From Austropuccinia psidii (Eukaryota; Basidiomycota; Pucciniomycetes; Pucciniales; Sphaerophragmiaceae): a DNA stretch of 64,000 bases. Location of the stretch: assembly GCA_023105745.1 (NCBI GenBank), contig JALGQZ010000015.1:813501-877500 (forward strand), written 5' to 3'. Made by a program: the position numbers and the translations under genes. The notes beneath the pieces were generated by a model. That model was given only the letters and a program-made list of their open reading frames with translations, was not told where the DNA came from and ran no database searches. Positions 10,258 to 55,705 of this stretch are shown here, one piece after another (position 1 is the stretch's first letter; each line of letters begins with the position of its first letter).

Positions 10258-11698
10258 TGTAAGGTTTGACTATGAAACAATAAGTAAAAATTACTAATAT
10301 TTTACTTATTGTACTATGAATGTCCTTATAAATGAAATAAATAAGATAAAAATAATTATAATAATAAAGAATTATTATAATTATGGCGTAAAATAATTAT
10401 ATTATTAAATAAATATAATAATATAATTCATATTATAAAAAATAATATATATAAAAGAAATATATCAATATGGGATAATTAATATATTTGAAAGCACTAT
10501 ATTATTGTTACCAACAAATAGTAAAGGCATAAAAAATTGTTTTTTATTAATAAAAAACAATTAATAACAATAATATTACCAATATTACAGTTATAAATTA
10601 ATATAAATACTATTCATATCAATTATAGAATTATTAAAATTGATAATAGAGAAAAGTTATTATAATAAGAGAAATAACCTACTTTTAATGCTTAATATAA
10701 TATTTTTGAGTAGATTTACGCCTAGAAATGTAAATAAAACTTATGTAAATTGTAGTTACAATAAAATCTAAAAGAAATTACAAATTTTCTGGATTTTACG
10801 TGGAATTGAGGTTTTTAAGAGAAATTTAAACAAAAACAATTAAGTAATTGTAATAATCACATCAAAGATGAATATTGTTATAAGATTATCTTTGGTCTTT
10901 AATAATATAAAGTTTTTATATATAAAGAATAGAGAAATTCGATTTTTATTTAATGATTTAATGTTTCGTAAGCATCTGAGGGGGAAATAGAGTAAAAAGA
11001 GCTCTATTTATATTAAATTCCTTCCTCATAGAGTCCAACAGGATTCTAGTAGACGTTCACTGATCATATCCACTAGAATTAATCAATTTTTAAAGGCTCG
11101 GTGACGATTACATCATGATGAAACCATATTATCTCATTATTACGCCATCATTTAGAGTTATCACTATAACTCTACGTTTGATGATGTCAAGACGTGGCAG
11201 AACCCCAAAATTCGTGGATTTTATTGGTTTTAATCATAAAATAACAGTATTCACCAATTGTATCACTCATATGACTGTTAAACTTAATTTAAGGTTACAG
11301 TGAGTGATGATATATGATGAAATTAAGCTCAAACTTTGATCCTTAATGACTTTTAAGATTTACATGCTACAGCAATTCAGAGAGTGAATTTGAATAGCTT
11401 GGCATAACCGTATTATTCTTCCAAGAGAATTTCATTACATCATCAAAACTGTATTTTTGATGATTTTTCGTGTAACTCATCTTTTCTAACGAAACTTAAT
11501 ATTTTAAACTTCAAACCATGATTTCAAGGGGTTATACCTTGAATATTATAATAAAAAACACATCATTCTTCACGAATGAACTAGTAGAATCCAAATTTCT
11601 ACTTTTTTTTAAGTTGGGACCACTTTTACAACAAAGTGGTCAACAGCTCTATTGATTTTAATCAATAATCCCTTACAGGTTTTAACCTTGTTTATAAT
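10258..11698 (-). repeat. Element A 3' LTR, first part
   Basis: Begins TGTAAGGTTTGACTATG and continues beyond solo LTR A2 at 13650-14189. Together they give about 1981 bp versus 1984 bp for the right LTR. ATAAT at 11694-11698 is the A2 target copy (ATAAC with one C to T change). The 62-82 aa plus-strand ORFs in LTRs of this family are antisense to the element and probably fortuitous. Confidence 0.92.
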
Positions 11699-13644
11699 TG
11701 TAAGGTTTGACTATGAAACAATAAGTAAGAATTACTAATGTTCCACTTATTGTACTATGAATATCCTTATAAATAAATTAAATAAGATATAAAATAACTA
11801 TAATAATGAAGAATTATTATAATTATGGCGTAAAATGATTATATTATTAAACAAATATAATAATATGATTTATATTATAAGAAATAATATATATAAAATA
11901 AATATATTAATATAAGATAATTAATATGTTAAGAAGCACTTTATTATTGTTACCAACAAATAATAAAGGCGTAAAAAACTGTTTTTTATTAAAAAAAACA
12001 ATTAATAACAATAATATTAGCAATATTAAAGTTATAAATTAATATAAATACTATTCATATCAATTATAGAATTATTAAAAGTAATAATAGAAAACGATTT
12101 ATTATAATAAGAGAAATAACCTACCTTTAATGCTCAATATAATAATTTTGAGTAAATTTACGCCTAGAAATGTAAATACAACTTATTTAAATTGTAGTTA
12201 CAATACATTTTAAGATAAATTACAAATGTTCTTGATTTTATGTGGAATTGAGGTTTTTGAGAGAAATTTAAACAAAACAATTAAATAATTTTAAAAATAA
12301 AATCAAAGATGAAGATTATTATAAGATGATATTTGGTCTTTAATAATATAAAAATTTTATATATAAAGAATAAAGAAACTACCTTTTTTATTTAATGATT
12401 TAATGTTTTGTAAGCATCTGAGGGGAAAACAGAGTAAAAAGAGCTCTATTTATAGTAAATATCTCCCTCCTAGAGTCCAACAGGCTTCTGGTAGACGTGA
12501 AAAGATCATATCCACTGGAATTGATCAATACTTTACGGTTTGGTGATGATTACATCATGAGTAAACCATATTATCTCATTATTACGCCATTATTGAGAGT
12601 TATCACTATAACTCTAGGTTTGATGATGTCAAGGCTTGGCAGAACCCCAAATTTTGTAGATTTTATTAGTTTTAATCATAAATTAACAGTATTCACCTAT
12701 TGTATCACTCATATGACTGTTAAACCTAATTTAAAGTTACAGTGAGTAATCATAAATGATCAAATTAAGCTCAAACTTTGATCCTTGATAACTTTTAAGA
12801 TTTACACGCTACAGCAATTCAGAGGGTTAATTATAATAGCTTGGCATAGCCTCACTATTCTTCCAAGAGCATTTCATTACATCATCAAAGATCTATTTTT
12901 GATGATTTTTCTTGTAACTCATCTTTTCTATTGAAATTTAATATTTCAAACTTCAAACCATGATTTCAAGGGGTTATACCTTGAATATTATGATAAAAAA
13001 TACATCATTCTTCACAAATGAACTAGTAGAATCACAACAAGGTGGTCAACAGCTCTGTTGATTTTAGTTAATAACCCTTACAGGTGTTAACCTTGTTTAT
13101 AACTTGTGAGATAAACTTCATTTCTTTATTTCTGGAGTAGTTACGTCATGACTTTATTTTTGGTTCATCACTCTATCATACATATTTCAAAAGATATTAG
13201 CTAAAATCCTTGAATATATGCATTGACCAAAAAAGTGCATATATTCAGCGTAATTCCTTAAGTATTGACTTTGGAGCTTAGCTTCTCAATTGTTTAATAT
13301 GTGAATTTCTATGGAGAATCCAATGGTACCATTTATTTTGCAGGCTGCTCCATTCGTCTTTGAAATAAATAACGATTTGTGTTTTTTATAAGGTATTATT
13401 ACTTATAACTCATTAAATATTGACTTTACAGATATGCCATCAAAATGGTATATGTGTATTTTACCATGGGGAATCCAATGAAAGAATTTATTTCACATGT
13501 TTGCTCATTGGGGTTTAAGTTAAACCAAGTTTTATGCCAATTTATGGCATTTTTGTAGCTTTAAGGTAATTATTTTTATGCATAATTACTTGAAATATTT
13601 CTTGTGACATTTTTGGGTATGTGGTAATATCTCAAAGGTTCACA
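11699..13644 (-). mobile_element. Solo LTR A2 (family A) nested in the LTR of element A
   Basis: 1946 bp, from TGTAAGG to TTCACA, flanked by ATAAT (11694-11698) and ATAAC (13645-13649). The uninterrupted right LTR of element A reads ATAAC at this place, so the left copy mutated after insertion. No internal region: a solo LTR left by LTR-LTR recombination of a same-family insertion. Confidence 0.92.
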
Positions 13645-13649
13645 ATAAC

Positions 13650-14189
13650 CTTTGAAGTAAAGTTCATTTCTGTATTCCTACAGTAATTACCTGATGACTT
13701 GATTTTGGTTCATCACTCTATCATGAATATTTCAAAAGATATTAGCTAAAATCCTTGAATATATGCATTGACCAAAAAAGTGCATATATTCAGCTCAACT
13801 CCTTAGGTATTGACTTTGGAGATTTGATTCTTAATTGTTTATGTGTGGATGTTTATGGATAATTCAATGGTACCATTTATTTCACATGTTGTTTCATTGG
13901 TATTTGAAATAATTAAGGATTTATGTTTTTTATAAGGTATCATTACTTATAACTCATTAAATATTGACTTTACAGATATGCCATAAAAATGGTATATGTG
14001 TATCTTACCATGGGGAATCCAATGGTATAATTTATTTCACATGTTTATTCATTGGACTTTAAGTTAAACCAGGTTTTATGCCAATTTATGGCATTTTTGT
14101 AGCTTTAAGGTAATTATTTTTAATGTATAATTATTTTAAATATTTCTTGTGACTGTTTTGAGTATGTGGTCATATCTCAAAGGGTCAAA
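13650..14189 (-). repeat. Element A 3' LTR, second part
   Basis: Resumes the LTR after A2 and ends near CAAAGGGTCAAA where an intact end would read CTCACA, so the terminal TG of the sense strand is mutated. The polypurine tract follows at once. Confidence 0.88.
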
Positions 14190-20102: not shown

Positions 20103-20316
20103 ATTTTAAGAAAAACAAAAAAATAAGAGGATTTCAGAACAGGAATTCTTCTTATGGCAATTTATAAATGGGGTACTCACCTTCAGAGTCCTGGAAAGTC
20201 CAATTTCTTGGCTTTCTTTTTCTTAGTGATTATTGGTGTTGGAGAACTTTGACAAGTTTCTTCCACCAATCTTTCAACAGTGGTTTTGTTGTCCTATGTT
20301 GGATTGTCTTAAAACA
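19469..20316 (-). pseudogene. Element A ORF1 (spliced frame overlapping Gag), broken
   Basis: On the minus strand, exon 1 would be 20316-20181, after acceptor CTTTTTTAG and starting with TG as in B and D. Exon 2 starts at 20091 and ends at the stop at 19469. Its frame is offset from Gag exactly as in the other families. The exon 2 segment 19804-19469 contains SNGWNPLSS and SYRIPKFKR, matching GWHP and GYRIPK in family D. Exon 1 has two internal stops, a one-base phase error and a TGA near its end; exon 2 has a TGA near 19940. No clear upstream donor found, so exon 1 is the weakest part. Confidence 0.55.
20092..20180 (-). other. Candidate intron 2 of element A ORF1, contains the Gag start
   Basis: 89 nt. 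Donor AAG then GTGAGT at 20180-20175, acceptor ACCAG ending at 20092. The Gag ATG (20102) sits 11 nt before the exon border. Position and frame relation agree with intron 2 in B, B2, D1 and D2 although the sequences differ. Confidence 0.65.
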
Positions 20317-20630
20317 CTAAAAAAGGCAAATAAATATAAGTCTTTTATATATGAAGTGTTATTTTTGGTAAGATATGGAAATTTTCCACATAATAATTGC
20401 TTTTATATCTTTAAAAAGTGAGAAGACTTAAAGAAATGAAATTGAAATGAATAAAATAACTTTTTTATTGGTTTTTATTATTTTTTTATTATTTTTTATG
20501 TTTTTATTTTTAAAGAATAAAACAAAAATGAATATGATTCTTTTATAGAATTAATTTATAATATATAATTATTTTTAATTTATAAAATATCTTTTTCAAT
20601 TACTAGAGTCACTCAAAGAAAGTTCTTTCA

Positions 20631-22458
20631 TGTAAGGTGTGGATATGAAACTTTGATTAAAAATCAAGTACTTTTCCTGTCCTCAAAATTTGTATAAGGT
20701 AAAAATCAATTAAAAATAGTATGAAATATTATTTTTAAGAGAAAACACGCCAATTTTATTGTTTATAACTTTATTAGTATAAAACAATAATATTATAAAA
20801 ATTTATTGTTTTACCAACAATAAAGATTTATCCAAAAAATACTCTACAAGAGATATTTTAAGGCTACAAAAGAAATTTCTTCAAGAGCAATTTCAATTGG
20901 AATTAATTGAGCAAAGAACTGCAAGCAATTAATTAAAGAACAAAGTCTTTAAAAAGAATATTAAAGAGAAAACACGCCCAAAAGTGACCAGAGTGAATTT
21001 GGAAACAAAGTGACAAAGTTTACAGTGATGAAAGATGCTTTAATTCACTTTTGGGGTGGTTCAGGGGTAAAAATGATTATAAGAGTTACAAACAATGATT
21101 ATAATGATTTTTTCACGTGGTTAAAAGGATTAAAATGATTTAAAAAGGGTGGTTGGAATCTTTTATTGATTGGTTTAACAGTTTTAAACTAATTAATAAA
21201 AGGAAAAGATTCTAACATGAAGAGAAAAGTGGGGCAAAGAAGACATTCTTTTATAGCCATCAATTCTCTTGCTCCAAAAGTAAAATTTACTCTTGTCAGT
21301 CGTGAAAAACAGTCTGACAACAGAAAAGCCAATTATGGCATCATTGAACCCTGGTTTAGACCAAAAAAGGCTGGTTTAAGCCATTTTTAGCCATTTTAGA
21401 CCCTTAAATCAGCCATTACTATAGCAATACCAGGCCTAGAGCCTTCAAAACACGTCAGAATGTGTGTCAGAGGCGTAGAAACCAGTTAAAACTGTTTTTA
21501 TTATGATTGTTTTATCTTAAGGGTAGTTTTACCCTCTTGGCAACAGCTAAAACTACCCCAGTTGGTATCAAAACCTCATCATCAATTGAGTCCACAGACC
21601 CTGTAACTCAATTCCAGGCCAAAAGTGATGAACTTTTGCGTGAATTTTGACATCCCACGCCTGTCAGCAAGGATTTTGGGGGTCTAGCTCCCCCTTAGAG
21701 CTGGAGTTCCTTTTCCCCCCCAAATTTAATCTTTCCAATTTATTTTTCTTTTAATTCCTCATCATGTATTATACTTATAATTTACACATGTAATTCAATT
21801 CAATTGTACAGTACAATACAGTAATAATTGACACCTCATATGTAAATCAAAGTTCACTTATGTAATACACGCGCACATTTTGACATTTCAATTGAATTCA
21901 ATTGAAAATACTTTAATTCCTCATAACTTCTAAACTAAACACAACACCTCAATTTTAACACAAAAATTGATGGTTAACACCACATGTGGTGTGAATTAAA
22001 TTAAGGTTTTGAGGATTTTCAACTTTTGTATTGAAAATACTAAAAACTTAATTTAAGCTTATTTAGAGTTGAGTTACAAACATTTCACTCAGAGGTGACC
22101 CCACCTGATTTTTTATGAGGAATCCAATGGTGAAATAAAATCTATATGTTTATTTATTGGATAAAAAGTTATAATAAATTTTATTTAACTTTTTTCCAAA
22201 TTTATTTATTTTTTCACAATTTTGTTAAAATTTCATTTTTACTTAAATTTTTCAAGTATAAATGTAATTTTATATTTACAAAATTTAAAGTAATTTTATT
22301 TTTAAATTATAATTAATTTTTTATTTTTAATATAATTTTATATTTATATTTTTTATTTTTATTTTAATAATATAAATAAATTTATTTTATTTATATTAAT
22401 ATGTTATTTTTTATATTTGTGGTCTTTTGGGTATATGAAATTACCTCTAAGGCTCACA
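20631..22458 (-). mobile_element. Solo LTR of family D in the leader of element A
   Basis: 1828 bp, from TGTAAGGTGTGGATATG to AAGGCTCACA, with target duplication TTTCA at 20626-20630 and 22459-22463. It matches the D1 and D2 LTRs throughout, including the TATA box (minus strand, near 21255), both copies of the 15-bp GGCGTG repeat and the 16-bp palindrome. It separates the primer-binding site of A from its gag, so A was already unable to move, or became so. Confidence 0.95.
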
Positions 22459-22463
22459 TTTCA

Positions 22464-26158: not shown

Positions 26159-26707
26159 GTAAGTCTTTTCTCTTTTTTATGACTTATTGATAAGTGTTTT
26201 ATCTTTTTTAGGCGTAATTTCTCTATTTAAATATATATTTTATATATATTTATCCTTTTTTATATATATACTCATATTATAAGAGTATTATTCACGTAGT
26301 TAATACCCACTGAAAATAACTATTTTTGGTGTGTTTTGTATATAAAAACACATAAGCCATCAATAAGTCCTGTATTCTTGACTGAATAAGGACACCTCTG
26401 ACTGCAAAACCATCAGTTGAGGCGTGGATTAAGTGTATTGTTAACTCAATAACACTTATACAAAGCCACTTGTACAGAATACACTTGAAAACCACAAGTG
26501 TATCTGTGGGATACTGGCACACAAACAGTGTGACAGGGTACCAAAAGCTGTAATTCTGACGTGGAACTGTTGATTCAATTACACTGTCATTATACAGGGC
26601 ACATTTTAGTAACATACAAGCCCAGAGGCCAACCTTAGACGTGAAAAACCAGCATTTTTAAGAAGTCTTAACTGACATAAGCCCTCCCTTTTCTGCCTTG
26701 ATTTCAG
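26159..26707 (+). other. Candidate intron 1 of element B ORF1
   Basis: 549 nt. Donor ACAAA then GTAAGT, acceptor preceded by a pyrimidine-rich stretch ending TTGATTTCAG. The upstream exon ends in A and the downstream exon starts with TG, so joining yields ATG GAA GAA. B2 has the matching donor (GTGAGG at 3090) and acceptor (ending at 2537). No ATG opens the ORF1 exon 1 frame otherwise. Confidence 0.65.
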
Positions 26708-27776
26708 TGGAAGAAAATTATATCCCACTTGAGACCCAGTCACAGGCCAACACACCAGTGACACCCTCAGAACCAGAGGGCAGCAAGGGCAAAGGAAAGA
26801 GGCACAGTGAAGGTCTCATCACAGCAAAGAAGTGGACACCAATAGCCACTCAGAGAAGTAGAAAAACACGAAACTCTGCATCCATACAAGGTAAACCAAC
26901 CTTAACCACTTGTACAGGAAAGATTACAATTATTAACCCAGTTGTAACTTCCAAAGGCAAACTGCCCAAGTCAGCAGACAATAAATTTGTACAAGGCACA
27001 GTCAAAGGTAAATAGCCTAAGAACATAAAGTTTTTGACTGCTTGCAAACACTGATATGTCCCCTGTATACCTCAGAGACCTTGGCTTCCAAAGGAACCAG
27101 CCAGAGGATAGAGGAGGATTTTCCAGAACCACAAGACCTGAAAGAGGACACCCTGGACACAATGGTGGATGGAAAAACAATGAGGGAGATAATATCAACC
27201 TTGCCATTCACACTCCAATTCAACAGAAGCCTCAAACCAGAGGACTGGAAGGATATGGATCAAGTTCTTCAGATCCACCAACTCCTCAAAGATTTATTTC
27301 AATGGAGCATGGACAACAAGAGGTTCAACCTAGCAACTCACTGGGCAGAACTGGGATCAAGTTGCCAGAAGATCTATCTCAAAGAGATAGACTTCAAAGA
27401 CCTTATGGTAATCACCAAGGGTTGGAATCCTACCAGGCAACACAGACTCCTGGAGGCAAGGGCACATAGGATAAGGGAGAATCAAGCCACTATCCTAGCT
27501 ATAGAAGAACAGTTAACCCAGACAGGGCCTACTCAGATTCCTTCAGGTTCACAAGGAGCAGGCCAAATCAGCTCTCCAGTGGCTTCACACCATTCAGGAA
27601 CCAGCAGATCAGTGGCCGAGAGTCACCATTCTTCACAATTCCAGGAAGTTTCCAGGAGAAGACAAGGAAACAAGGGCAAGAACAAAGCCTCCTTCAACCA
27701 GAGGAGGAAAGAGTCAGACCCCATGATCCAGAAGCTGTTAGATTTGGTAAAAGAAGTACACAAGAACCAGAAATAG
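26708..27776 (+). CDS. Element B ORF1, spliced protein overlapping Gag (333 aa, unknown function)
   Basis: Exon 1 is 26708-27007 and exon 2 is 27076-27776. With the A supplied by the upstream exon, the length is 1002 nt, 333 codons and a stop, with no interruption. The protein starts MEENYIPLETQ, has a basic Ser/Lys-rich part (EGSKGKGKRHSEG), then acidic and helical segments (LKPEDWKDMDQVLQIHQLL), the conserved GWNP at residues 216-219, LLEARAHRIREN, a Ser/Gln-rich linker and a helical end QKLLDLVKEVHKNQK. GWNP lies 114 codons after the junction versus 113 in family D. No domain recognised; it could be a nucleic-acid-binding or particle-associated protein, but that is a guess. Exon 2 overlaps Gag in the frame one base apart. 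Confidence 0.65.
27008..27075 (+). other. Candidate intron 2 of element B ORF1, contains the Gag start
   Basis: 68 nt. Donor AAAG then GTAAAT, acceptor TACCTCAG. B2 has the same length, donor and acceptor. Removing it joins the 26708 frame to the SETLASKGTSQR frame without a stop. The Gag-Pol ATG (27056-27058) lies 20 nt before the exon border and is lost on splicing. Confidence 0.7.
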
Positions 27777-44176: not shown

Positions 44177-45605
44177 TGTAAGGTGTGGATATGAAACTTT
44201 GATTAAAAATCAAGTACTTTTCCTGTCCTCAAAATTTGTATAAGCTAAAATTCTATTAAAAATAGTAAGAAATATTATTTTTAAGAGAAAACACGCCAAA
44301 TTTATTGTTTTACCAACAATAAAAATTTATCCAAAAAATACTCTACAAGAGATATTTTAAGGCTACAAAAGAAATTTCTTCAAGAGCAATTTCAATTGGA
44401 ATTAATTGAGCAAAGAACTGCAAGCAATTAATTAAAGAAAAAAGTCTTTAAAAAGAATATTAAAGAGAAAACACGCCCAAAAGTGACCAGAGTGAATTTG
44501 GAAACAAAGTGACAAAGTTAACAGTGATGAAAGATGCTTTAATTCACTTTTGGGGTGGTTCAGGGGTAAAAATGATTATAAGAGTTACAAACAATGATTA
44601 TAATGATTTTTTCACGTGGTTAAAAGGATTAAAATGATTTAAAAAGTGGTGGTTGGAATCTTTGATTGATTGGTTTAACAGTGTTTAAACTAATTAATAA
44701 AAGGAAAAGATTCTAACATGAAGAGAAAAGTGGGGCAAAGAAGACATTCTTTTATAGCCATCAATTCTCTTACTCCAAAAGTAAAATTTACTCTTGTCAG
44801 TCGTGAAAAACAGTCTGACAACAGAAAAGCCAATTATGGCATCATTGAACCCTGGTTTAGACCAAAAAAGGGCTGGTTTAAGCCATTTTTAGCCATTTTA
44901 GACCCTTAAATCAGCCATTATAATAGCAATACCAGGCCTAGAGCTTTCAAAACACGTCAGAATGTGTGTCAGAGGCGTAGAAACCAGTTAAAATTGTTTT
45001 TATTATGATTGTTTTATCTTAAGGGTAGTTTTACCCTCTTGGCAACAGCTAAAACTACCCCAGTTGGTATCAAAACCTCATCATCAATTGAGTCCACAGA
45101 CCCTGTAACTCAATTCCAGGCCAAAAGTGATGAACTTTTGCGTGAATTTTGACATCCCACGCCTGTCAGCAAGAAATTTGGTGGTCTAGCTCCCCCTTAG
45201 AGCTGGAGTTCCTTTTCCCCCCCAAATTTAATCTTTCCAATTTATTTTTCCTTTAATTCCTCATCATGTATTATACTTATACTTTACATATGTAATTCAA
45301 TTCAATTGTACAGTACAATAGAGTAATAATTGACACCTCATATGTAAATCAAAGTTCACTTATGTAATACACGCGCACATTTTGACATTTCAATTGAATT
45401 CAATTGAAAATACTTCAATTCCTCATAACTTCTAAACTAAACACAACACCTCAATTTTAACACAAAAATTGATGGTTAACACCACATGTGGTGTGAATTA
45501 AATTAAGTTTTTGAGGATTTTCAACTTTTGTATTGAAAATACTAGAAACTTAATTTAAGCTTATTTAGAGTTGAGTTACAAGAATTTCACTCAGAGGTGA
45601 CCCCA
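44177..45605 (-). repeat. Element D1 5' LTR, inner part
   Basis: 1429 bp, continuing at 55711-56064 after D2. Lacks about 48 bp (near 44308) bounded by AATTTATTGTTT repeats that other D LTRs have. Carries the TATA box on the minus strand near 44754. The last five bases (CCCCA) are the D2 target copy. Confidence 0.93.
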
Positions 45606-46071
45606 TGTGATCCTTAGAGGTAATTTCATATACCCAAAAGACCACAAATATAAAAAATAACATATTAATATAAATAAAATAAATTTATTTATATTATTAA
45701 AATAAAAATGAAAAATATAAATATAAAATTATATTAAAAATAAAAAATTAATTATAATTTAAAAATAAAATTACTTTAAATTTTGTAAATATAAAATTAC
45801 ATTTATACTAGAAAAATTTAAGTAAAAATGAAATTTTAACAAAATTGTAAAAAAATAAATAAATTTGGAAAAAAGTTAAATAAAATTTATCATAACTTTT
45901 TATCCAATAAATAAACATATAAATTTTATTTCACCATTGGATTCCTCATAAAAAATCAGGTGGGGTCACCTCTGAGTGAAATTTTTGTAACTCAACTCTA
46001 AATAAGCTTAAATTAAGTTTTTAGTATTTTCAATACAAAAGTTGAAAATCCTCAAAACCTTAATTTAATTC

Positions 46072-46087
46072 ACACCACATGTGGTGT
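46072..46087 (+). promoter_or_regulatory. 16-bp perfect palindrome in family D LTRs
   Basis: ACACCACATGTGGTGT, self-complementary throughout. Present in all D LTRs and unchanged in the strongly diverged LTR piece at 62979-62994, where neighbouring AT-rich DNA has drifted. A dimeric regulator site is a reasonable guess. Confidence 0.5.
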
Positions 46088-46505
46088 TAACCATCAATTT
46101 TTGTGTTAAAATTGAGGTGTTGTGTTTAGTTTAGAAGTTATGAGGAATTAAAGTATTTTCAATTGAATTCAATTGAAATGTCAAAATGTGCGCGTGTATT
46201 ACATAAGTGAACTTTGATTTACATATGAGGTGTCAATTATTACTGTATTGTACTGTACAATTGAATTGAATTACATGTGTAAATTATAAGTATAATACAT
46301 GATGAGGAATTAAAGGAAAAATAAATTGGAAAGATTAAATTTGGGGGGGAAAAGGAACTCCAGCTCTAAGGGGGAGCTAGACCCCCAAAATCCTTGCTGA
46401 CAGGCGTGGGATGTCAAAATTCACGCAAAAGTTCATCACTTTTGGCCTGGAATTGAGTTACAGGGTCTGTGGACTCAATTGATGATGAGGTTTTGATACC
46501 AACTG

Positions 46506-46543
46506 GGGTAGTTTTAGCTGTTGCCAAGAAGGTAAAACTACCC
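46506..46543 (+). promoter_or_regulatory. Inverted repeat upstream of the family D TATA box
   Basis: Perfect 11-bp arms GGGTAGTTTTA (46506-46516) and TAAAACTACCC (46533-46543) with a 16-nt loop, about 275 bp before the TATA box. Kept in the D1, D2 and solo LTRs. Confidence 0.5.
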
Positions 46544-46670
46544 TTAAGATAAAACAATCATAATAAAAACAGTTTTAACTGGTTTCTACGCCTCTGACAC
46601 ACATTCTGACGTGTTTTGAAGGCTCTAGGCCTGGTATTGCTATAGTAATGGCTGATTTAAGGGTCTAAAA

Positions 46671-46697
46671 TGGCTAAAAATGGCTAAAAATGGCTTA
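46671..46697 (+). repeat. Short tandem repeat in family D LTRs
   Basis: Tandem AATGGCTAAA-type units. Copy number differs among LTRs: the D1 3' LTR has an extra unit near 36665 and the solo LTR near 21385 has fewer. Confidence 0.6.
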
Positions 46698-46818
46698 AAC
46701 CAGCCCTTTTTGGTCTAAACCAGGGTTCAATGATGCCATAATTGGCTTTTCTGTTGTCAGACTGTTTTTCACGACTGACAAGAGTAAATTTTACTTTTGG
46801 AGTAAGAGAATTGATGGC

Positions 46819-46826
46819 TATAAAAG
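46819..46826 (+). promoter_or_regulatory. TATA box of the family D LTR
   Basis: TATAAAAG, followed about 20-40 bp on by a pyrimidine-rich stretch (CCCCACTTTTCTCTTC) suitable for initiation. Present in both D2 LTRs and the solo LTR; disrupted in the D1 3' LTR. Start site not determined. Confidence 0.65.
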
Positions 46827-47095
46827 AATGTCTTCTTTGCCCCACTTTTCTCTTCATGTTAGAATCTTTTCCTTTTATTAATTAGTTTAAAACTGTTAAA
46901 CCAATCAATAAAAGATTCCAACCACCCTTTTTAAATCATTTGAATCCTTTTAACCACGTCAAAAAATCATTATAATCATTGTTTGTAACTCTTATAATCA
47001 TTTTTACCCCTGAACCACCCCAAAAGTGAATTAAAGCATCTTTCATCACTGTAAACTTTGTCACTTTGTTTCCAAATTCACTCTGGTCACTTTTG

Positions 47096-47337
47096 GGCGT
47101 GTTTTCTCTTTAATATTCTTTTTAAAGACTTTGTTCTTTAATTAATTGCTTGCAGTTCTTTGCTCAATTAATTCCAATTGAAATTGCTCTTGAAGAAATT
47201 TCTTTTGTAGGCTTAAAATATCTCTTGTAGAGTATTTTTTGGATAAATCTTTATTGTTGGTAAAACAATAAATTTTTATAATATTATTGTTTTATACTAA
47301 TAAAGTTATAAACAATAAAATTGGCGTGTTTTCTCTT
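47096..47337 (+). repeat. 15-bp direct repeat pair downstream of the family D promoter
   Basis: GGCGTGTTTTCTCTT occurs at 47096-47110 and again at 47323-47337, perfectly repeated 227 bp apart. Both copies persist in every full D LTR in the window (as AAGAGAAAACACGCC in minus-oriented ones). They lie within the expected transcribed LTR part, so they could act on DNA or RNA. Confidence 0.6.
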
Positions 47338-47443
47338 AAAAATAATATTTCATACTATTTTTAATTGATTTTTACCTTATACAAATTTTGAGGACAGGAA
47401 AAGTACTTGATTTTTAATCAAAGTTTCATATCCACACCTTACA

Positions 47444-47461
47444 TTTGGGGGCCTGGCCGTG
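47444..47461 (+). other. Primer-binding region of element D2
   Basis: TTTGGGGGCCTGGCCGTG right after the 5' LTR. Shared with B and, with changes, with A and B2 although their LTRs are unrelated. Confidence 0.65.
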
Positions 47462-47593
47462 ATATTTTACCTGTGACATATTTTTTTTACTCTTTTTAAA
47501 TCTTTTTTCTTATATTGAAAAATTTAAAAACATATAAAAAATACTTATAATTCAAAAAAAACCCATAAAAAATATTTTTTTTTCATATTATAA

Positions 47594-47670
47594 GTGAGGC
47601 TTAAATTTTTATTTCTTTTTTTGAAATATCCTTTTTTTACTTAATTAATTGGCTTTTTCATTAATTTTAG
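47594..47670 (+). other. Candidate intron 1 of element D2 ORF1
   Basis: 77 nt. Donor TATAA then GTGAGG, acceptor CATTAATTTTAG. The exon before ends in A and the exon after begins TG TCT GAC AAC, so splicing makes ATG. Matches D1 in length and both sites. Confidence 0.65.
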
Positions 47671-48582
47671 TGTCTGACAACATGGTAAGACAAGAAAACA
47701 TTGAAACAGCCTCAACAGTAACCAGCATTATCCCTGCCAGTACTGTTAATTCTGATCATAATAGTACTGTTATTGTGACTCAAAATAATCAACCTGAACC
47801 AATATCTTCTGAATTAATTAACTTGGATATAAGTAATACACTTCAGAAAGCCAAAAATTTGGCCAATAGTAAGTTTTTGACGTAAAAATACTATTTTAAG
47901 CCTTTTTTAACCATAATTATGCCTTCAACCAGGTCAGGAGCCAGCTACAACCCCTCAAGCAGCTCCCAAATAGGTAATAGACGTGATTATGGCAGAGGCC
48001 AATCAGGTACAGAAGGAAAAGGGTCAGTTGATGACTTCCAAACAACTAAAATGGGTCATTCTGAAGCTGATAATACCATTTTACCTTCAAAAAGAGCTGA
48101 CACCGCCACAACAAGCCTCTGTGGACATATACAAAGCCAGCCACAGTGCATACAACAATGCACTCCAATTCAAGGAGTACCAGATCCTTGCAGACCTGTG
48201 GAAGAATTGCATGAATTCTTACCTGACAGTAAGAAAATTCTTGGGCCATCCCAACACTTGCAAATTGCTCAATGGATGGCATCCATTGATGGAGAAGAAA
48301 AACATGATGCTTTTGACACTAGAATGGAGGAAAAACAACCCTCCACCAGCCAAACCAGTGCCAAAAACAGCCCCAGTGGCCAGCAGCAGCAATTCCAACG
48401 TGAAAAAGCAGCCACAAACTCCAAACAAGGGCAAAGGGAAGGCACCAGCCCCAAAACCTTACAGCAAGGGCTACAGAATCCCAAAGATTCAGCAGGATGC
48501 CATGGAAAATGTATTTCAGATGGCCAGAACCATGATGGAATTACAGAAGAAGGAGGAAGCCAGATTAAGGTTCCAGAAATGA
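47671..48582 (+). pseudogene. Element D2 ORF1, one stop codon
   Basis: Exon 1 is 47671-47868 and exon 2 is 47933-48582; total 849 nt with the upstream A, exactly as D1. A TAG (second codon after PQAAP) replaces the Lys codon AAG of D1, so the spliced product would end after about 80 residues. The rest of exon 2 is open to 48582 and differs from D1 at only eight or nine residues, with GWHP at 48274-48285. The part after the stop could only be made from a downstream ATG (MIMAEANQ, 47983). Confidence 0.7.
47869..47932 (+). other. Candidate intron 2 of element D2 ORF1, contains the Gag start
   Basis: 64 nt. Donor AATA then GTAAGT, acceptor TCAACCAG. The Gag-Pol ATG is at 47919-47921, 14 nt before the exon border. 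The intron is T-rich with TTTTTTAAC upstream of the acceptor as a possible branch region. Confidence 0.75.
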
Positions 48583-51500
48583 TTTCTGACATATTTGATT
48601 CCATCCCAGAGTTGTATAATGCTATAAATGACGTGAAAAAACATCTTTCTGATAAAAATGACACCATTTGTAACAACATTAAAACAAACAACCTGAGTCT
48701 GTGCCAAATTAATGAAACACTTATGTGTTTTGAAAAAGTTTTGAGAACAATTAAAAATTCCAATAATGATAATTCTTCTAACATTAAAATAAATGAACAA
48801 TCTGCCATTATTAAAGAATTAACAGATAAATATTCTAAATTCAATATTGATGACATGATTGAAACAAGAATTAAACAAGCCATAAATATTATCAAGACAG
48901 ATAACAAGAAAGTCCTTGATGACATTTCAAATTCATTTACTGAAGTAAAGACATATACCATTGCCTTGAAAAAGTGTTTTGATGTTTCACAAGAAGAAGT
49001 ATCAAAATTATCAATGAAATTGAATCAAGTCACTGCTGATAATACAAGACAGACAGAGTTATGGCAAGAACTTACACATAAAGAAGACATGTATAAAATT
49101 GAAGTAATAAATTTAATACAAAGCTTCCAACATGAATACAGAAATTCCCAAAGGTGTAGCAACAGTAAAACGAATGACATTGAACAATTACTGAACACCT
49201 TACCAAGAATGTCTACACCTCTAAATCAAAATGAGGGCACAAGAATTTCAAATCCACAAGTATTGGATCCTGATAATTCACAATTAAAAAATGAATTATC
49301 CACTTCTTTTCATAACTTGGAACCATCAATGGGCCAAGCACTCTTGAAAGAAGTTCCAAAACTTAAAGAATGGCCTCACTTCAGTGGTGAAGGAGAGTAT
49401 GACCATATGGAATTCATTAGAGGTATTGACATGATCAAAGAGGATTTTGAATTACCAGACAGATTGGTAACAGCCAGGTTTAACACCTTGTTTACCAGAT
49501 CAGCTCACAGATGGTACATCAAAATAAGACAAGCACATGGACACCAGAGTTGGACTTGGTGGAAAACCCAAATCATCAACAAATGGGCAAATGATGCTTG
49601 GAGGTTTAAAGTTGAAACAGCCTTTGAATCTGCCAAATTTAATGCTGATAAAGACAGAGCTTTACCATGGTTTTGCCAACAAAAGGACAGATTAACAGCA
49701 TTATATCCTGACATGTCAGAGTTTATGATCCATAGAAAAATTCTGAGACAATGTGGAGGTGACTTAGAGCATGCTGTCAAAAGCAGGACTACTGAACAAT
49801 CTTCAGCAGAAGATATTATCAATATACTAGAAGAAGTAACCACCAGAACCAAAATTGGTTCTAGTAGGGTGAATCTCAAAACAAGGTTTAATACACCTTG
49901 GAAAGATTCTGTGGACAAAAACCCCAAAGAAAATTCTAGTAATATTAAATATAAATCTGCAGATACAGTCAGAAAATGCCATATTTGCCAAAGCACCACC
50001 CATTTAGCCAATACATGTCCAAAAAGGGGGAAAATCAATGAAATTGACATTGAAAAAGAACCAGATGTTGAAAAAGAAGACATAATTGAAGACAATTCAG
50101 ATGATAAGTCATCCATATTCTCTGAATCTTCAAAAGATATAGAAAATATCAATGCCACTTTTGACATCATGGAATCTTATTCCCACTTACCACAATTGAG
50201 CAATGGTCAAGTTGATTTATCAAAAGTTCAAGATGCACAACTTATGAAGACAAAACCAAACAGAGGAAAAAGGTTATACAGCTGGTAACTCCTGTATAAC
50301 AGAAGTGGTGATTGACAACAAACCCACCAAACTTTTGCTTGACCCAGGAGCCTTCTGCTCTTGTGTTGGAAAATCTTTTCTTAAGACTTGTGTACCAAAT
50401 TTTGAAGACCAATTGTTACCAATTGATGGTATAAAATTCAACAGTGCAAGTAACCCAATGAAAGCATTAGGAATCTTTGAGACCAATGTCATATTCCAAC
50501 ACATAAATGAAAATTTAAGGATCACAGTTGAATTTGTTGTTATGGAAAATTGCTCTAGTACCCATTTTATATTGGGAAATGACTATTTAATCATGTATGG
50601 GATAGATTTACATAATAACAAAGACAGATACTTTACAATTGGAGACAATAAGCGCCAGAAATTTGCCTTTTTACCCTTTAAAAGACAAATTACAGTAAAC
50701 AAAGTATCACCAGTCAACTTAGAGTTAGAGAAATGCAAGTCTGAACAGTTAAATGAGGCTGAAATAAGCCTTCATCTTACTGATAAGCAAGAAAATGAAC
50801 TTTCTTCCCTTTTGTATGACCACAGAGGAGCATTTGCTACAGACAAAGAACCCCTGGGAGCAATTATTGGTCATGAAGTTGACATCATTCTTAACATTGA
50901 GAGACCTTATCCACCACTCTTAAGAAGACCTGCTTATCCAGCAAGTCCAAAATCAAGAGAAGCTCTAGAAATTCATATCAAAGAACTTCTAGACCTTGGT
51001 GTAATAAGAAAAGTAGGCCACAATGAGGAAGTAGAAATAACTACACCAGTCATAGTGGCGTGGCATAATGGAAAATCCAGAATGGTTGGGGACTTTAGAG
51101 CTCTGAACACTTACACTGTTCCAGACAGATACCCAATACTAAAAATTCAAATTGCCCTTACTCAAATATCTCAAGCAGTGTATATAACCACTATGGATGC
51201 CCTTAAAGGATTCCATCAAAATGTAGTAACACCAAGAGCAAGAAAATACTTGAGAATTATTGTTCATTGTGGAGTGTATGAATACTTAAGGATGCCCTTT
51301 GGTATCAAAAATGCACCTTCACACTTCCAAAGAATGATGAATGAAATCTTCCCTGAAGAACTCTCAGAGGGATGGTTAATCATTTACATTGATGACATTA
51401 TTATCTGTTCAAAGACTTGGGAGGAGCACATGTACAGATTATCAAGAGTTTTGACAAAAATCCAATCAGTAAACATGAAAATCTCCTTGAAGAAATGTCA

Positions 51501-53844
51501 TTTTGGATTTAAAGAACTTAAGGCACTAGGACATGTTGTATCTGGTTTGTCCCTTGGAATTGATAAAAACAAAGTTGCAGCAGTATTGTTAAAACCCATG
51601 CCTCAGAATAAGAAGGAAATTCAGTCATTCTTAGGTTTTGCAGGATATTACAGGAAACACATTAAAGACTTTGCATCCATAGCAAGACCACTTTATAAGT
51701 TGTGTGACAAAGACACAGTATTTGAGATGACTGTTGACAGAGTCAAAGCTTTTGAGTCTCTAAGAGAAGCATTGACCACTGCTCCACTCTTACTGATGCC
51801 AGACTTTAAATTGCCTTTCAAACTGTATATTGATGCATCAGGGGATGGACTAGGTGCTGCACTTCACCAAGTTCAGATCATAAATGACAAACCTGTAGAA
51901 GGACCAATATGTTTCATATCCAGGCAAATCAAACCAACTGAAGCCAGATATGGAGCAAGTCAAATGGAATGTCTATGCCTTGTCTGGGCCTTAGAGAAAT
52001 TGAACTATTTCTTAGAGGGATGTGTTTTTGAAGTAATAACAGATTGTACAGCTGTGAAATCACTTTTGAACATGAAAACACCTAACAGACACATGCTCAG
52101 ATGGCAAATAGCCATACAAGAATACAGAGGCAATATGACTATTGTTCATAAGGATGGGAATATTCATAAGAATGCAGATGGACTAAGCAGATGGCCATTA
52201 CCAAATAGCATTGATAATCCTGCTTATGTTCCAGAAGAAGCTTCACCACAAATTCCAATAGAAGGAATAAGTGTTACAGACTTGAACACCACCTTCTTTG
52301 AAGAAGTCAGAAATAGTTACACTCAAGATAAGAATTGTAGCATCTTATGCCAATTACTTAACAAAGACTGTAAAGACAACTCTCTAATACATGCCTTGGA
52401 TGAAGTATGGAGAAAATCTTATAATGAAGGGAGATTTCACCTACTGGATGGTATAATTTACCACAGACCCAAGCACACATGTGTCATGACAGTTGTAGAC
52501 AGGTCATTAATCAATCTTGTACTGAAAGAATGCCATGATAGTCCCTTTTCAGGACATCTTTCTGAGGACAGAACAAGAGAGAAAGTAAAGACCTGCATAT
52601 GGTGGCCAATGTGGCAAAAAGATGTTGCAGAATATTGCAAAACCTGTGACAGATGCCAAAAGGCAAATAAATCCACTGGCAAAAGACTTGGAAATATGAT
52701 GAAAATCCAAGAACCAAACAGACCTTGGGAAATTGTCCATATGGATTGGGTAACTGGCCTACCACCAGGAGGTGACAGGAGCTATAATGCTTGCCTAGTA
52801 ATTGTGGACAGATTCAGTAAAACTCCAATCTTTTTACCATGTCACAAAGATGATACAGCCATGGATACAGCTCTTCTGATATGGAATAGAGTAGTGTCAT
52901 GGACTGGGATATTTACAAATATCATCAGTGATAGAGATCCTAAGTTCACTTCAGCTCTATGGACAAATCTTCACCAATTATTTGGCACAAAACTGTCTTT
53001 CTCTACAGCCTACCACCCACAAACTGATGGTCTGGCTGAAAGAATGATCCAAACCTTAGAGGACATGGTGAGAAGATTTTGTGCATATGGCCTTGAATTC
53101 AAAGATTGTGATGGATTTACCCATGATTGGTGTACTCTGTTACCAGCACTGGAATTAGCATATAAAACATCAATCCATTCCAGTACCAATCAGACTCCTG
53201 CTATTCTAGAAAAAGGATGGAACCCCAAGTTACCCCAAGATTCCTTGAGGAAAGACTTAATTGAAATACATCCCACAGCTGCTAGCTTCAAAGGAATGCT
53301 AGACAAAGCTAGAAAGCATGCAGTGAGATGCATGGAGGACTCTTTTGCATATGCTAAAGACAAATGGGATAAATCTCATGCAACTCCAGATTTCAAAGTG
53401 GGGGACCTAGTTCTTGTATCCACCACTAACTTCAATAACATCAAAGGATGTAAAAAGTTAAAAGACTCCTTTGCAGGACCTTTTGTGATTAAGGCCCTCC
53501 ATGGAGAAAATGCTGTTGAAGTAGAGTTATCTGAAGAACTTAGCAATAAGCACCCTACATTTCCAGTAAGATTGATAAAGCCATACAAATCTAGTGATGC
53601 TGAGAAATTTCCATTGAGGAATAAGATTCCCCAAGTTATACCTCCTATTGAGACATCTGGTACTAAGAAAATAACCAAAGTTCTTAAAGAAAGGAAATTA
53701 AGAACCAAGAAAGTAAGGGAATACCTTGTTAGGTACAGTGACCCAACTTGTGAAGATGAATGGTTAGAAGAGAAAGATATACCAGAAGCCACCAAACTCC
53801 TGAGGAGATTCAGACACACTAGAAACACCAATATTACAAAGTAA
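47919..53844 (+). pseudogene. Element D2 Gag-Pol, one frameshift (about 1975 codons)
   Basis: ATG at 47919 (MPSTRSGASYNPSSS). Residues 1-221 are polar and overlap ORF1. Capsid-like region about 480-640, zinc knuckle CHICQSTTHLANTC 687-700. An extra A in a run at 50267-50271 (D1 has four, D2 five) shifts the frame just before protease; the second part is open from about 50272 to 53844. Protease core [10 protein letters not shown] (Asp near 808), RT box YIDD 51385-51396 (near 1156), RNase [11 protein letters not shown] (near 1302), H-H-C-C zinc region, integrase Asp 52744, Asp 52930, Glu 53038 with D,D(35)E spacing, and a chromodomain-like tail (REYLVRYSD, near 1930). RYPIP of RT reads RYPIL. 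As it stands, only Gag would be made. Confidence 0.93.
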
Positions 53845-53855
53845 TATTCCTTTTT

Positions 53856-53867
53856 AGGGGGAGGGAA
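53856..53867 (+). other. Polypurine tract of element D2
   Basis: AGGGGGAGGGAA directly before the 3' LTR and 11 bases after the Gag-Pol stop. Confidence 0.78.
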
Positions 53868-55705
53868 TGTGAGCCTTAGAGGTAATTTCATATACCCAAA
53901 AGACCACAAATATAAAAAATAACATATTAATATAAATAAAATAAATTTATTTATATTATTAAAATAAAAATGAAAAATATAAATATAAAATTATATTAAA
54001 AATAAAAAATTAATTATAATTTAAAAATAAAATTACTTTAAATTTTGTAAATATAAAATTACATTTATACTAGAAAAATTTAAGTAAAAATGAAATTTTA
54101 ACAAAATTGTAAAAAAATAAATAAATTTGGAAAAAAGTTAAATAAAATTTATTATAACTTTTTATCCAATAAATAAACATATAAATTTTATTTCACCATT
54201 GGATTCCTCATAAAAAATCAGGTGGGGTCACCTCTGAGTGAAATTTTTGTAACTCAACTCTAAATAAGCTTAAATTAAGTTTTTAGTATTTTCAATACAA
54301 AAGTTGAAAATCCTCAAAACCTTAATTTAATTCACACCACATGTGGTGTTAACCATCAATTTTTGTGTTAAAATTGAGGTGTTGTGTTTAGTTTAGAAGT
54401 TATGAGGAATTAAAGTATTTTCAATTGAATTCAATTGAAATGTCAAAATGTGCGCGTGTATTACATAAGTGAACTTTGATTTACATATGAGGTGTCAATT
54501 ATTACTGTATTGTACTGTACAATTGAATTGAATTACATGTGTAAATTATAAGTATAATACATGATGAGGAATTAAAGGAAAAATAAATTGGAAAGATTAA
54601 ATTTGGGGGGGAAAAGGAACTCCAGCTCTAAGGGGGAGCTAGACCCCCAAAATCCTTGCTGACAGGCGTGGGATGTCAAAATTCACGCAAAAGTTCATCA
54701 CTTTTGGCCTGGAATTGAGTTACAGGGTCTGTGGACTCAATTGATGATGAGGTTTTGATACCAACTGGGGTAGTTTTAGCTGTTGCCAAGAAGGTAAAAC
54801 TACCCTTAAGATAAAACAATCATAATAAAAACCGTTTTAACTGGTTTCTACGCCTCTGAAACACATTCTGACGTGTTTTGAAGGCTCTAGGCCTGGTATT
54901 GCTATAGTAATGGCTGATTTAAGGGTCTAAAATGGCTAAAAATGGCTAAAAATGGCTTAAACCAGCCCTTTTTGGTCTAAACCAGGGTTAAATGATGCCA
55001 TAATTGGCTTTTCTGTTGTCAGACTGTTTTTCACGACTGACAAGAGTAAATTTTACTTTTGGAGTAAGAGAATTGATGGCTATAAAAGAATGTCTTCTTT
55101 GCCCCACTTTTCTCTTCATGTTAGAATCTTTTCCTTTTATTAATTAGTTTAAAACTGTTAAACCAATCAATAAAAGATTCCAACCACCCTTTTTAAATCA
55201 TTTTAATCCTTTTAACCACGTGAAAAAATCATTATAATCATTGTTTGTAACTCTTATAATCATTTTTACCCCTGAACCACCCCAAAAGTGAATTAAAGCA
55301 TCTTTCATCACTGTAAACTTTGTCACTTTGTTTCCAAATTCACTCTGGTCACTTTTGGGCGTGTTTTCTCTTTAATATTCTTTTTAAAGACTTTGTTCTT
55401 TAATTAATTGCTTGCAGTTCTTTGCTCAATTAATTCCAATTGAAATTGCTCTTGAAGAAATTTCTTTTGTAGCCTTAAAATATCTCTTGTAGAGTATTTT
55501 TTGGATAAATCTTTATTGTTGGTAAAACAATAAATTTTTATAATATTATTGTTTTATACTAATAAAGTTATAAGCAATAAAATTGGCGTGTTTTCTCTTA
55601 AAAATAATATTTCATACTATTTTTAATTGATTTTTACCTTATACAAATTTTGAGGACAGGAAAAGTACTTGATTTTTAATCAAAGTTTCATATCCACACC
55701 TTACA
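53868..55705 (+). repeat. Element D2 3' LTR
   Basis: 1838 bp, same length as the 5' LTR, with TGTGAGCC start. Differences from the 5' LTR that I noted are all single bases. Confidence 0.96.

Follow-up and report, generated by a model that had tools for sequence, protein, structure and literature searches.

We analysed a 64,000-nucleotide (nt) window of Austropuccinia psidii (contig JALGQZ010000015.1, positions 813501-877500; assembly of 1.015 Gb in 84 contigs) and found that Ty3/Gypsy long terminal repeat (LTR) retrotransposons in it very probably (we put this at about 0.86) carry a start-codon switch made by splicing. The genome of A. psidii MF-1 is 1.02 Gb and consists of more than 90% transposable elements, mostly Gypsy (PMC8063080; here and below, statements on published work refer to excerpts of the cited papers). 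The family letters A, B and D are those of a first-pass annotation of this DNA, and E and F were named in the follow-up. Pfam domains at the D and B loci occurred in the order RVT_1, RT_RNaseH, Integrase_H2C2, rve and SH3_Tf2-1, with reverse transcriptase and RNase H upstream of integrase as in Ty3/Gypsy elements.

In the proposed switch, ribosomes on unspliced RNA would scan an almost AUG-free leader of approximately 1 kb to the Gag-Pol AUG, which lies just before the acceptor of intron 2; the same RNA would also be the genome for reverse transcription. Removal of the upstream intron 1 would join a leader A to an exon TG, creating an AUG, and removal of intron 2 would delete the Gag AUG and join exon 1 in frame to open reading frame 1 (ORF1), which overlaps the N-terminus of Gag in another frame. 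A third, in-frame intron could also be removed in D. Because splicing destroys one start and assembles the other, Gag-Pol and ORF1 would come from mutually exclusive RNAs. Splicing is presumably partial and regulated, with initiation at both AUGs and translation of both proteins. The first-pass annotation had likewise assigned Gag-Pol to unspliced and ORF1 to spliced RNA, a division strengthened here by near-ATG-free D and B leaders, an in-phase coding exon 1 and intronless genomic copies. It had overlooked the upstream intron ending in AG|TG that builds the ORF1 start codon, and further introns upstream of and within ORF1.

Re-measurement of intron 2 confirmed the geometry reported earlier at five loci, where a GT-AG intron of 64-89 nt has the Gag ATG 11, 14 or 20 nt upstream of its acceptor. 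On the forward strand, these were D2 (ATG at 47919; intron 2 at 47869-47932, 64 nt; ATG to acceptor 14 nt) and B (27056; 27008-27075, 68 nt; 20 nt), and on the reverse strand D1 (43696; 43750-43683, 68 nt; 14 nt), the decayed copy B2 (2188; 2236-2169, 68 nt; 20 nt) and A (20102; 20180-20092, 89 nt; 11 nt). All of the distances are 2 modulo 3, and Gag therefore has the same frame offset from ORF1 at all five loci. In 20 further D and 20 further B copies, chosen from the best 150 ORF1 matches of each type and not a random sample, the Gag ATG was present in 20/20 and 19/20, the intron 2 AG in 20/20 and 20/20, and the donor in 19/20 and 20/20, respectively. The sequence gave no sign of a Gag-Pol start upstream of intron 2, which would have contradicted the intronic start.

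D intron 1 (77 nt) reads CATATTATAA|GTGAGG ... TTTTAG|TGTCTGAC, and its excision yields A|TG TCT GAC; the ORF1 start codon of D is absent from the DNA as such and would be formed when splicing joins the leader A to the exon TG. B intron 1 (approximately 550 nt; 549 nt in the window copy) follows the same logic with a different sequence, TTATAA or TTACAA(A)|GTAAGT ... GATTTCAG|TG GAA GAA. Forward-strand D2 contains intron 1 at 47594-47670, a 198-nt coding exon 1 at 47671-47868, which begins with the last two bases of the split start codon, and the remainder of ORF1 after intron 2 at 47933-48582, overlapping Gag. The corresponding features of D1 on the reverse strand are intron 1 at 44025-43949, exon 1 at 43948-43751 and ORF1 after intron 2 at 43682-43033, open to its stop. 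Those of B, on the forward strand, are intron 1 at 26159-26707 (TTACAAA at its donor, TGGAAG after its acceptor), a 300-nt exon 1 at 26708-27007 and ORF1 after intron 2 at 27076-27776, again overlapping Gag. The exon 1 acceptor AG|TG was found in 19/20 D copies and, by pattern, in 18/20 B copies, the two misses (L021 and L031) also reading AG|TG; the first (intron 1) donors were found in 19/20 D and 18/20 B copies.

Two other ways of starting the upstream exon were rejected. An ORF1 start at the ATG at 47682 was dismissed because 17 of 19 D copies with a translated exon 1 have GTG there (all but D2 and L005), as do MF-1 gene models such as P0002, which start with SDNVV. A fusion of exon 1 to Gag was discarded because the spliced frame is that of ORF1.

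The spliced D frame, with intron 3 left in, was at least 282 codons long in 17/22 copies (the 20 fetched copies plus D1 and D2). Among the other five, L018 had a stop at codon 48 and D2 at 79, and L004, L011 and L017 could not be computed, as one splice-site pattern failed in each. The spliced B frame ran for 333-335 codons in 17/21 copies (the 20 fetched copies plus B), with L032 stopping at 88 and L021, L031 and L037 uncomputed after pattern failure; the leader A was supplied by the script, and no first donor was found in L025 or L039. These values are biased upwards, since selection of the D and B copies was confined to the 150 best ORF1 matches of each type. The earlier statement that splicing opens ORF1 did not hold for D2 itself: a TAG in the ORF1 frame at 47971-47973, where D1 reads AAG, would end the product after 79 codons, and full-length ORF1 would require stop readthrough. 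The window copies A and B2 are decayed as well.

Intron 3 of D (72 nt, GTCAGT...CAAAAAG; 48023-48094 in D2 and 43592-43521 in D1) lies in frame within ORF1 and was carried by 19/20 D copies. It had not been proposed from the DNA beforehand and is removed in several MF-1 gene models (e.g., P0039 and P0046). An intron 3 candidate of 86 nt was found in E, and the pattern found none in F. Reading the ORF1-frame stops of E and F as decay only was revised, as part of them fall in an intron-3-like stretch.

The leaders of D and B were almost free of ATG. D1 had none between 44719 and 43696. In D2, the stretch 46859-47918 (the 3' part of the 5' LTR, primer binding site (PBS) region, leader, exon 1 and part of intron 2) contained a single ATG, that at 47682, which is the sole one between 46856 and 47919; in B, the sole ATG between 25815 and 27056 was at 26179. 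Over the 722 nt before the Gag ATG, 14/20 fetched D copies had no ATG and six had one or two. A base-order control over 1020 nt of D1 gave 0 ATG versus 14 AGT, 9 TAG, 20 TGA, 6 GAT and 13 GTA. Summed over 20 D copies of 722 nt, 9 ATG were counted versus 101-319 for the other five A/T/G orders, and over 20 B copies of 720 nt, 10 versus 77-357. Dinucleotide shuffles predicted 12-15 ATG for B leaders, in which 0-4 were observed (17/21 copies with a recognised PBS), and 6.4 and 6.6 for D leaders, in which 0 and 1 were observed (only 2/22 copies had the PBS spelling asked for).

These leaders bear on the possibility that ORF1 is an old gene and that the Gag extension up to the intronic ATG is untranslated, Gag starting further downstream. 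The better conservation of the ORF1 frame than of the Gag frame in their overlap agrees with this idea. We nevertheless judge it very improbable, given that D and B leaders are AUG-poor right up to the intronic ATG, that this ATG is kept in 39/40 fetched D and B copies and that, in five families, it stands 2 modulo 3 nt before the acceptor.

Spliced RNA, if ever reverse transcribed, would leave exact spliced joints in the genome. A search for the D joint GGCCAATA|GTCAGGAGCC (exact matches only) returned one genomic match, and its reversed-pattern control returned 0. In this processed copy, L063, which still has its PBS and leader, intron 1 has been removed at the predicted borders, TATTATAATGTCTGACAA carrying the new ATG, and intron 2 and the 72-nt intron 3 are missing too. 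B junction 2 occurred at 12 genomic places with at most one mismatch (7 exact; control 0) and B junction 1 at 5 (4 exact; control 0), three of which are copies also having junction 2. Two B copies have the leader piece GGACC 240 nt upstream of the exon 1 end; because this distance fits exon 1 minus a 66-nt GT-AG stretch, a candidate extra intron may lie at 26891-26956 within B exon 1, as judged by distance only. Read from these genomic joints, RNA of both D and B was spliced in the past at the predicted intron 1 and intron 2 sites, in agreement with the earlier view that intron 2 is removable.

Recombination or gene conversion could in principle have produced such copies in place of reverse transcription of spliced RNA, and the single exact D match, together with B matches that could be one re-amplified event, would fit that origin. 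It is extremely unlikely, as in both families the joins coincide exactly with GT-AG borders of introns 1 and 2 that had been predicted in advance, and the reversed-pattern controls were 0.

The same copies are relevant to constitutive splicing, in which nearly all RNA would be spliced to ORF1 and Gag-Pol would come from rare, uncontrolled unspliced leakage. In its favour, introns 2 and 3 have clean GT-AG borders, as does intron 1 in D and B, and processed copies lack two or three introns together. Against it, the best 150 of 40,256 D-type and of 15,444 B-type ORF1 candidates (an unverified first look) retain the intron 2 end. The list is biased, because a few intron bases stood at the start of the queries used for these matches, and it does not measure splicing in the RNA pool. 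Because of this retention, we lean towards unspliced RNA being what is mostly copied, and regard constitutive splicing as unlikely, if not negligibly so.

Codon positions within exon 1 and ORF1 were then compared between copies. For exon 1, D1 and L054 (from an evenly spaced sample) differed at 3/66, 2/65 and 21/65 of the first, second and third codon positions of the spliced frame (p = 2e-7). In the overlap without intron 3, the ORF1 third position, which is the Gag first position, was fastest: 39/191 versus 19 and 20 of 191 for L054 (p 0.0035) and 35/185 versus 10/184 and 12/185 for L057 (p 1e-5). In the part coding for Gag only, the Gag third position was fastest in all four D pairs; the Gag-only part of the B/B2 alignment was unusable. 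Best-piece bit scores of D ORF1 versus the overlapping Gag frame against other families were 94/34 for L044, 62/31 for L059, 64/38 for window copy A and 60/43 for L045. The codon-position bias indicates selection on ORF1 and, from one diverged pair, on exon 1, and at the sequence level D exon 1 and ORF1 appear constrained as protein.

This constraint is pertinent to a model in which splicing is incidental and ribosomes on unspliced RNA reach ORF1 by leaky scanning, bypassing the Gag AUG and initiating at an ATG in the ORF1 frame (...VIDVIMAEANQ...). An in-frame ORF1 ATG does occur soon after intron 2, some MF-1 gene models start there (P0011), and a motif search found exon 1 missing from 89 of the 120 listed D-type and 94 of the 120 listed B-type models. 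Leaky scanning would leave exon 1 without use, yet exon 1 is under protein-level constraint in D and has the same phase in five families; moreover, intronless copies exist, and the unspliced ORF1 of L044 and L059 has stops in the intron 3 region, though these are old copies. We therefore consider this model highly improbable and retain the splicing-made switch.

Sampling of twenty 10-kb stretches at even spacing, together with two short pieces taken from copies that have long open frames, yielded relatives of A and members of E and F. Exon 1 measured 198 (D), 300 (B), 150 (A), 159 (F) and 117 nt (E), all multiples of 3, and the phase of the exon 1/ORF1 junction was identical in the five families (one copy each in both comparisons; the Gag ATG of the E copy used for the phase comparison reads ATA). 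In D, B, A and F, the copies examined had AG|TG at the start of exon 1, as did one of the two E copies. Exon 1 was stop-free in the examined D, B, A and F copies; in E, the second codon of L045 was a stop, and older A copies also had stops. The decayed window copy of A has its exon 1 at 20181-20316 on the reverse strand, and the exon is open in its relative L062, which had 0 ATG in the 617 nt before the Gag ATG. Weak intron 1 donor candidates also end in A (in F, AAAA|GTATAA in 3/3 copies). A, E and F probably make their start codon in the same way as D and B.

Several observations weigh against the splicing-made switch or narrow its reach. The exon 1 position bias rests on one D pair, since D2 (2, 0 and 6 differences), L048 (3/66, 0/65 and 2/65) and L057 (2, 0 and 4) were too close to D1 to tell, and comparisons within E (L044/L045), F (L059/L054), A (window/L060) and B/B2 showed no significant bias. 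Exon 1 alone was not significantly short of ATG when its Met-free protein was held fixed (P 0.40 for D, 0.16 for B, 0.57 for A and 1.0 for F), and the depletion therefore belongs to the leader as a whole and to an exon 1 that encodes no Met. No strong intron 1 donor was found in A or F by pattern search or in E by eye, and the second E copy reads AG|TT at the start of exon 1. ATGs numbered 4, 3 and 6 in the F leaders L061, L059 and L054, respectively, and 1-4 in older copies of A and E. B retains its short upstream ATG at 26179. The processed copies may stem from few events. Transcripts might ordinarily be spliced to ORF1 mRNA, and intron retention might be rare or uncontrolled. Finally, the switch is read from DNA sequence.

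Two side observations concern these upstream ATGs. In the F leaders L061, L059 and L054, CpG had decayed to TpG/CpA, giving new ATGs in the PBS region; because of such decay (GCCGTG to GCCATG, CACGTG to CACATG), some leader ATGs of F, A and E are explicable. In B, the short stretch GTAAGT...TTTTTTAG at 26159-26212 holds the sole upstream ATG, and, if its end served as an alternative acceptor, ATG 26179 would be taken out of the Gag mRNA.

The ORF1 protein gave few clues to its function. ORF1 pieces from the window had no Pfam match at E 0.01, and ORF1 alignments had weak matches only, the commonest being DUF4535 (12/40, best E 0.0024), with WXG100 in 4/38. A profile comparison of D-type versus B-type ORF1 revealed no homology. 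AlphaFold models were helical and of low confidence (mean predicted local distance difference test scores of 60 and 54). The calculated isoelectric point was basic for the D part after intron 2 (10.0) and for B exon 1 (10.1) and acidic for D exon 1 (4.4). All public homologues listed (120 of 574 and 120 of 908) were named A. psidii MF-1 and were mostly hypothetical or uncharacterised proteins. The database names of P0011, P0028, P0046, P0060, P0089 and P0093 begin with 'No apical meristem-associa'; no such family was among the 25 Pfam matches listed at E 1 for an alignment that included P0046 and P0089.

Comparison with known systems identified partial parallels. Cer1, a Ty3/Gypsy element of C. 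elegans, likewise produces an unspliced RNA that serves as genome and Gag-Pol message and, by splicing, an mRNA encoding CERV; this novel, species-limited protein is needed for export of the unspliced Cer1 genome (PMC10309623). The processed copies and the coding exon 1 suggest that an extra protein would come from spliced RNA here too. The elements differ from Cer1 in that the extra ORF overlaps the Gag N-terminus and does not lie between pol and the 3' LTR, its start is made by splicing and the Gag ATG is intronic (PMC10309623); homology to CERV was not searched for directly. Because CERV is the nearest working precedent, our best guess, a tentative one that we think is more probably wrong than right, is that ORF1 acts as a CERV/Rev-like regulator or accessory factor of intron-containing genomic RNA.

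In HIV-1 and other complex retroviruses, unspliced RNA similarly serves as genome and Gag-Pol message and spliced RNA encodes a regulatory protein such as Rev (PMC10309623 in part). In contrast, the Gag AUG here sits in the 3' end of an intron of 64-89 nt, Gag and ORF1 overlap and the element is no retrovirus, although no search for env was made. In S. cerevisiae GCR1, unspliced mRNA uses a start in the retained intron and spliced mRNA a start in exon 1 (PMC7826247), and the anatomy of an intronic start with an alternative start once spliced appears to recur here. GCR1, however, encodes a host transcription factor as two isoforms of a single protein, and its exon 1 start exists before splicing (PMC7826247), whereas the present elements would encode two proteins in different frames and have a start assembled by splicing. 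EVADE/ATCOPIA93 and other Arabidopsis Ty1/Copia elements with shGAG also divide labour between spliced subgenomic and unspliced full-length RNAs, but there the spliced RNA makes Gag (PMC8892269); splicing here would delete the Gag ATG, and the strategy is therefore not that of shGAG. The plant Gypsy elements Ogre and Diaspora share a long leader, and Ogre has an extra ORF upstream of gag, but excerpts of the 2005 paper describe no start switch in them and state that no intron upstream of gag had then been reported in any LTR retroelement (PMC1142308).

No LTR element with an intronic Gag start or a splice-made start codon was found in the open-licence literature, which was covered mostly by title and the start of the abstract, with subscription literature outside the search. 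The words gag, intron and splic- were not found in the main text of a paper on rust transposable elements (PMC12210899).

To our knowledge, little is known outside retroviruses about how LTR retrotransposons divide one RNA among genome, Gag-Pol and another protein. In the elements described here, the answer seems to be written in the DNA, as an AUG-poor leader, an intronic Gag start and a start codon present only once the RNA is spliced. The switch predicts exact junction reads, ...TTATAA|TGTCTGAC and GGCCAATA|GTCAGGAG, and junction peptides. It also yields a conserved ORF1 protein family in a one-gigabase fungal genome mostly of Gypsy elements (PMC8063080), and warns annotators that a split start codon is easily missed. 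A broader reading, in which one old splicing programme flips exclusive start codons across five or more diverged Gypsy families, with ORF1 as the first member of a fungal class of Rev/CERV-like regulators, is speculative, and we hold it to be doubtful.

The remaining features of the elements were as follows. The LTRs flanking D2, at 45605-47444 and 53866-55705, are probably about 1.84 kb long, and pieces of both match 20630-22460 at 99%; this D2-LTR-like stretch adjoins element A and is perhaps a solo LTR. TTTGGGGGCCTGGCCGTG stands at the LTR end in D2, with a near-identical stretch in B, and is a candidate PBS. In D, the primer binding region (47444-47470 in D2) had two spellings, TTTGGGGGCCTGGCCGTG in D2 and L012 versus TTTGGGGGCCCAGCCGTG in D1, L002, L009 and L063, which could reflect two primer tRNAs or a drifted site. 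Matches of Gag zinc knuckles in the window frames were below the Pfam cut-off. The D2 Gag-Pol frame runs on the forward strand from the intronic ATG at 47919 to a first stop at 50288, near which it is broken (frames 47886-50288 and 50248-53844). The D1 frame (43705-40001, reverse strand) runs on, open for 1234 codons to a break near 40001, and because it is open past the point where D2 breaks, a programmed frameshift need not be assumed. Elsewhere in the window, direct repeats spaced approximately 1442 nt apart occupy 10258-14137, with more copies near 22.7-24.6 kb and 56.7-58 kb.
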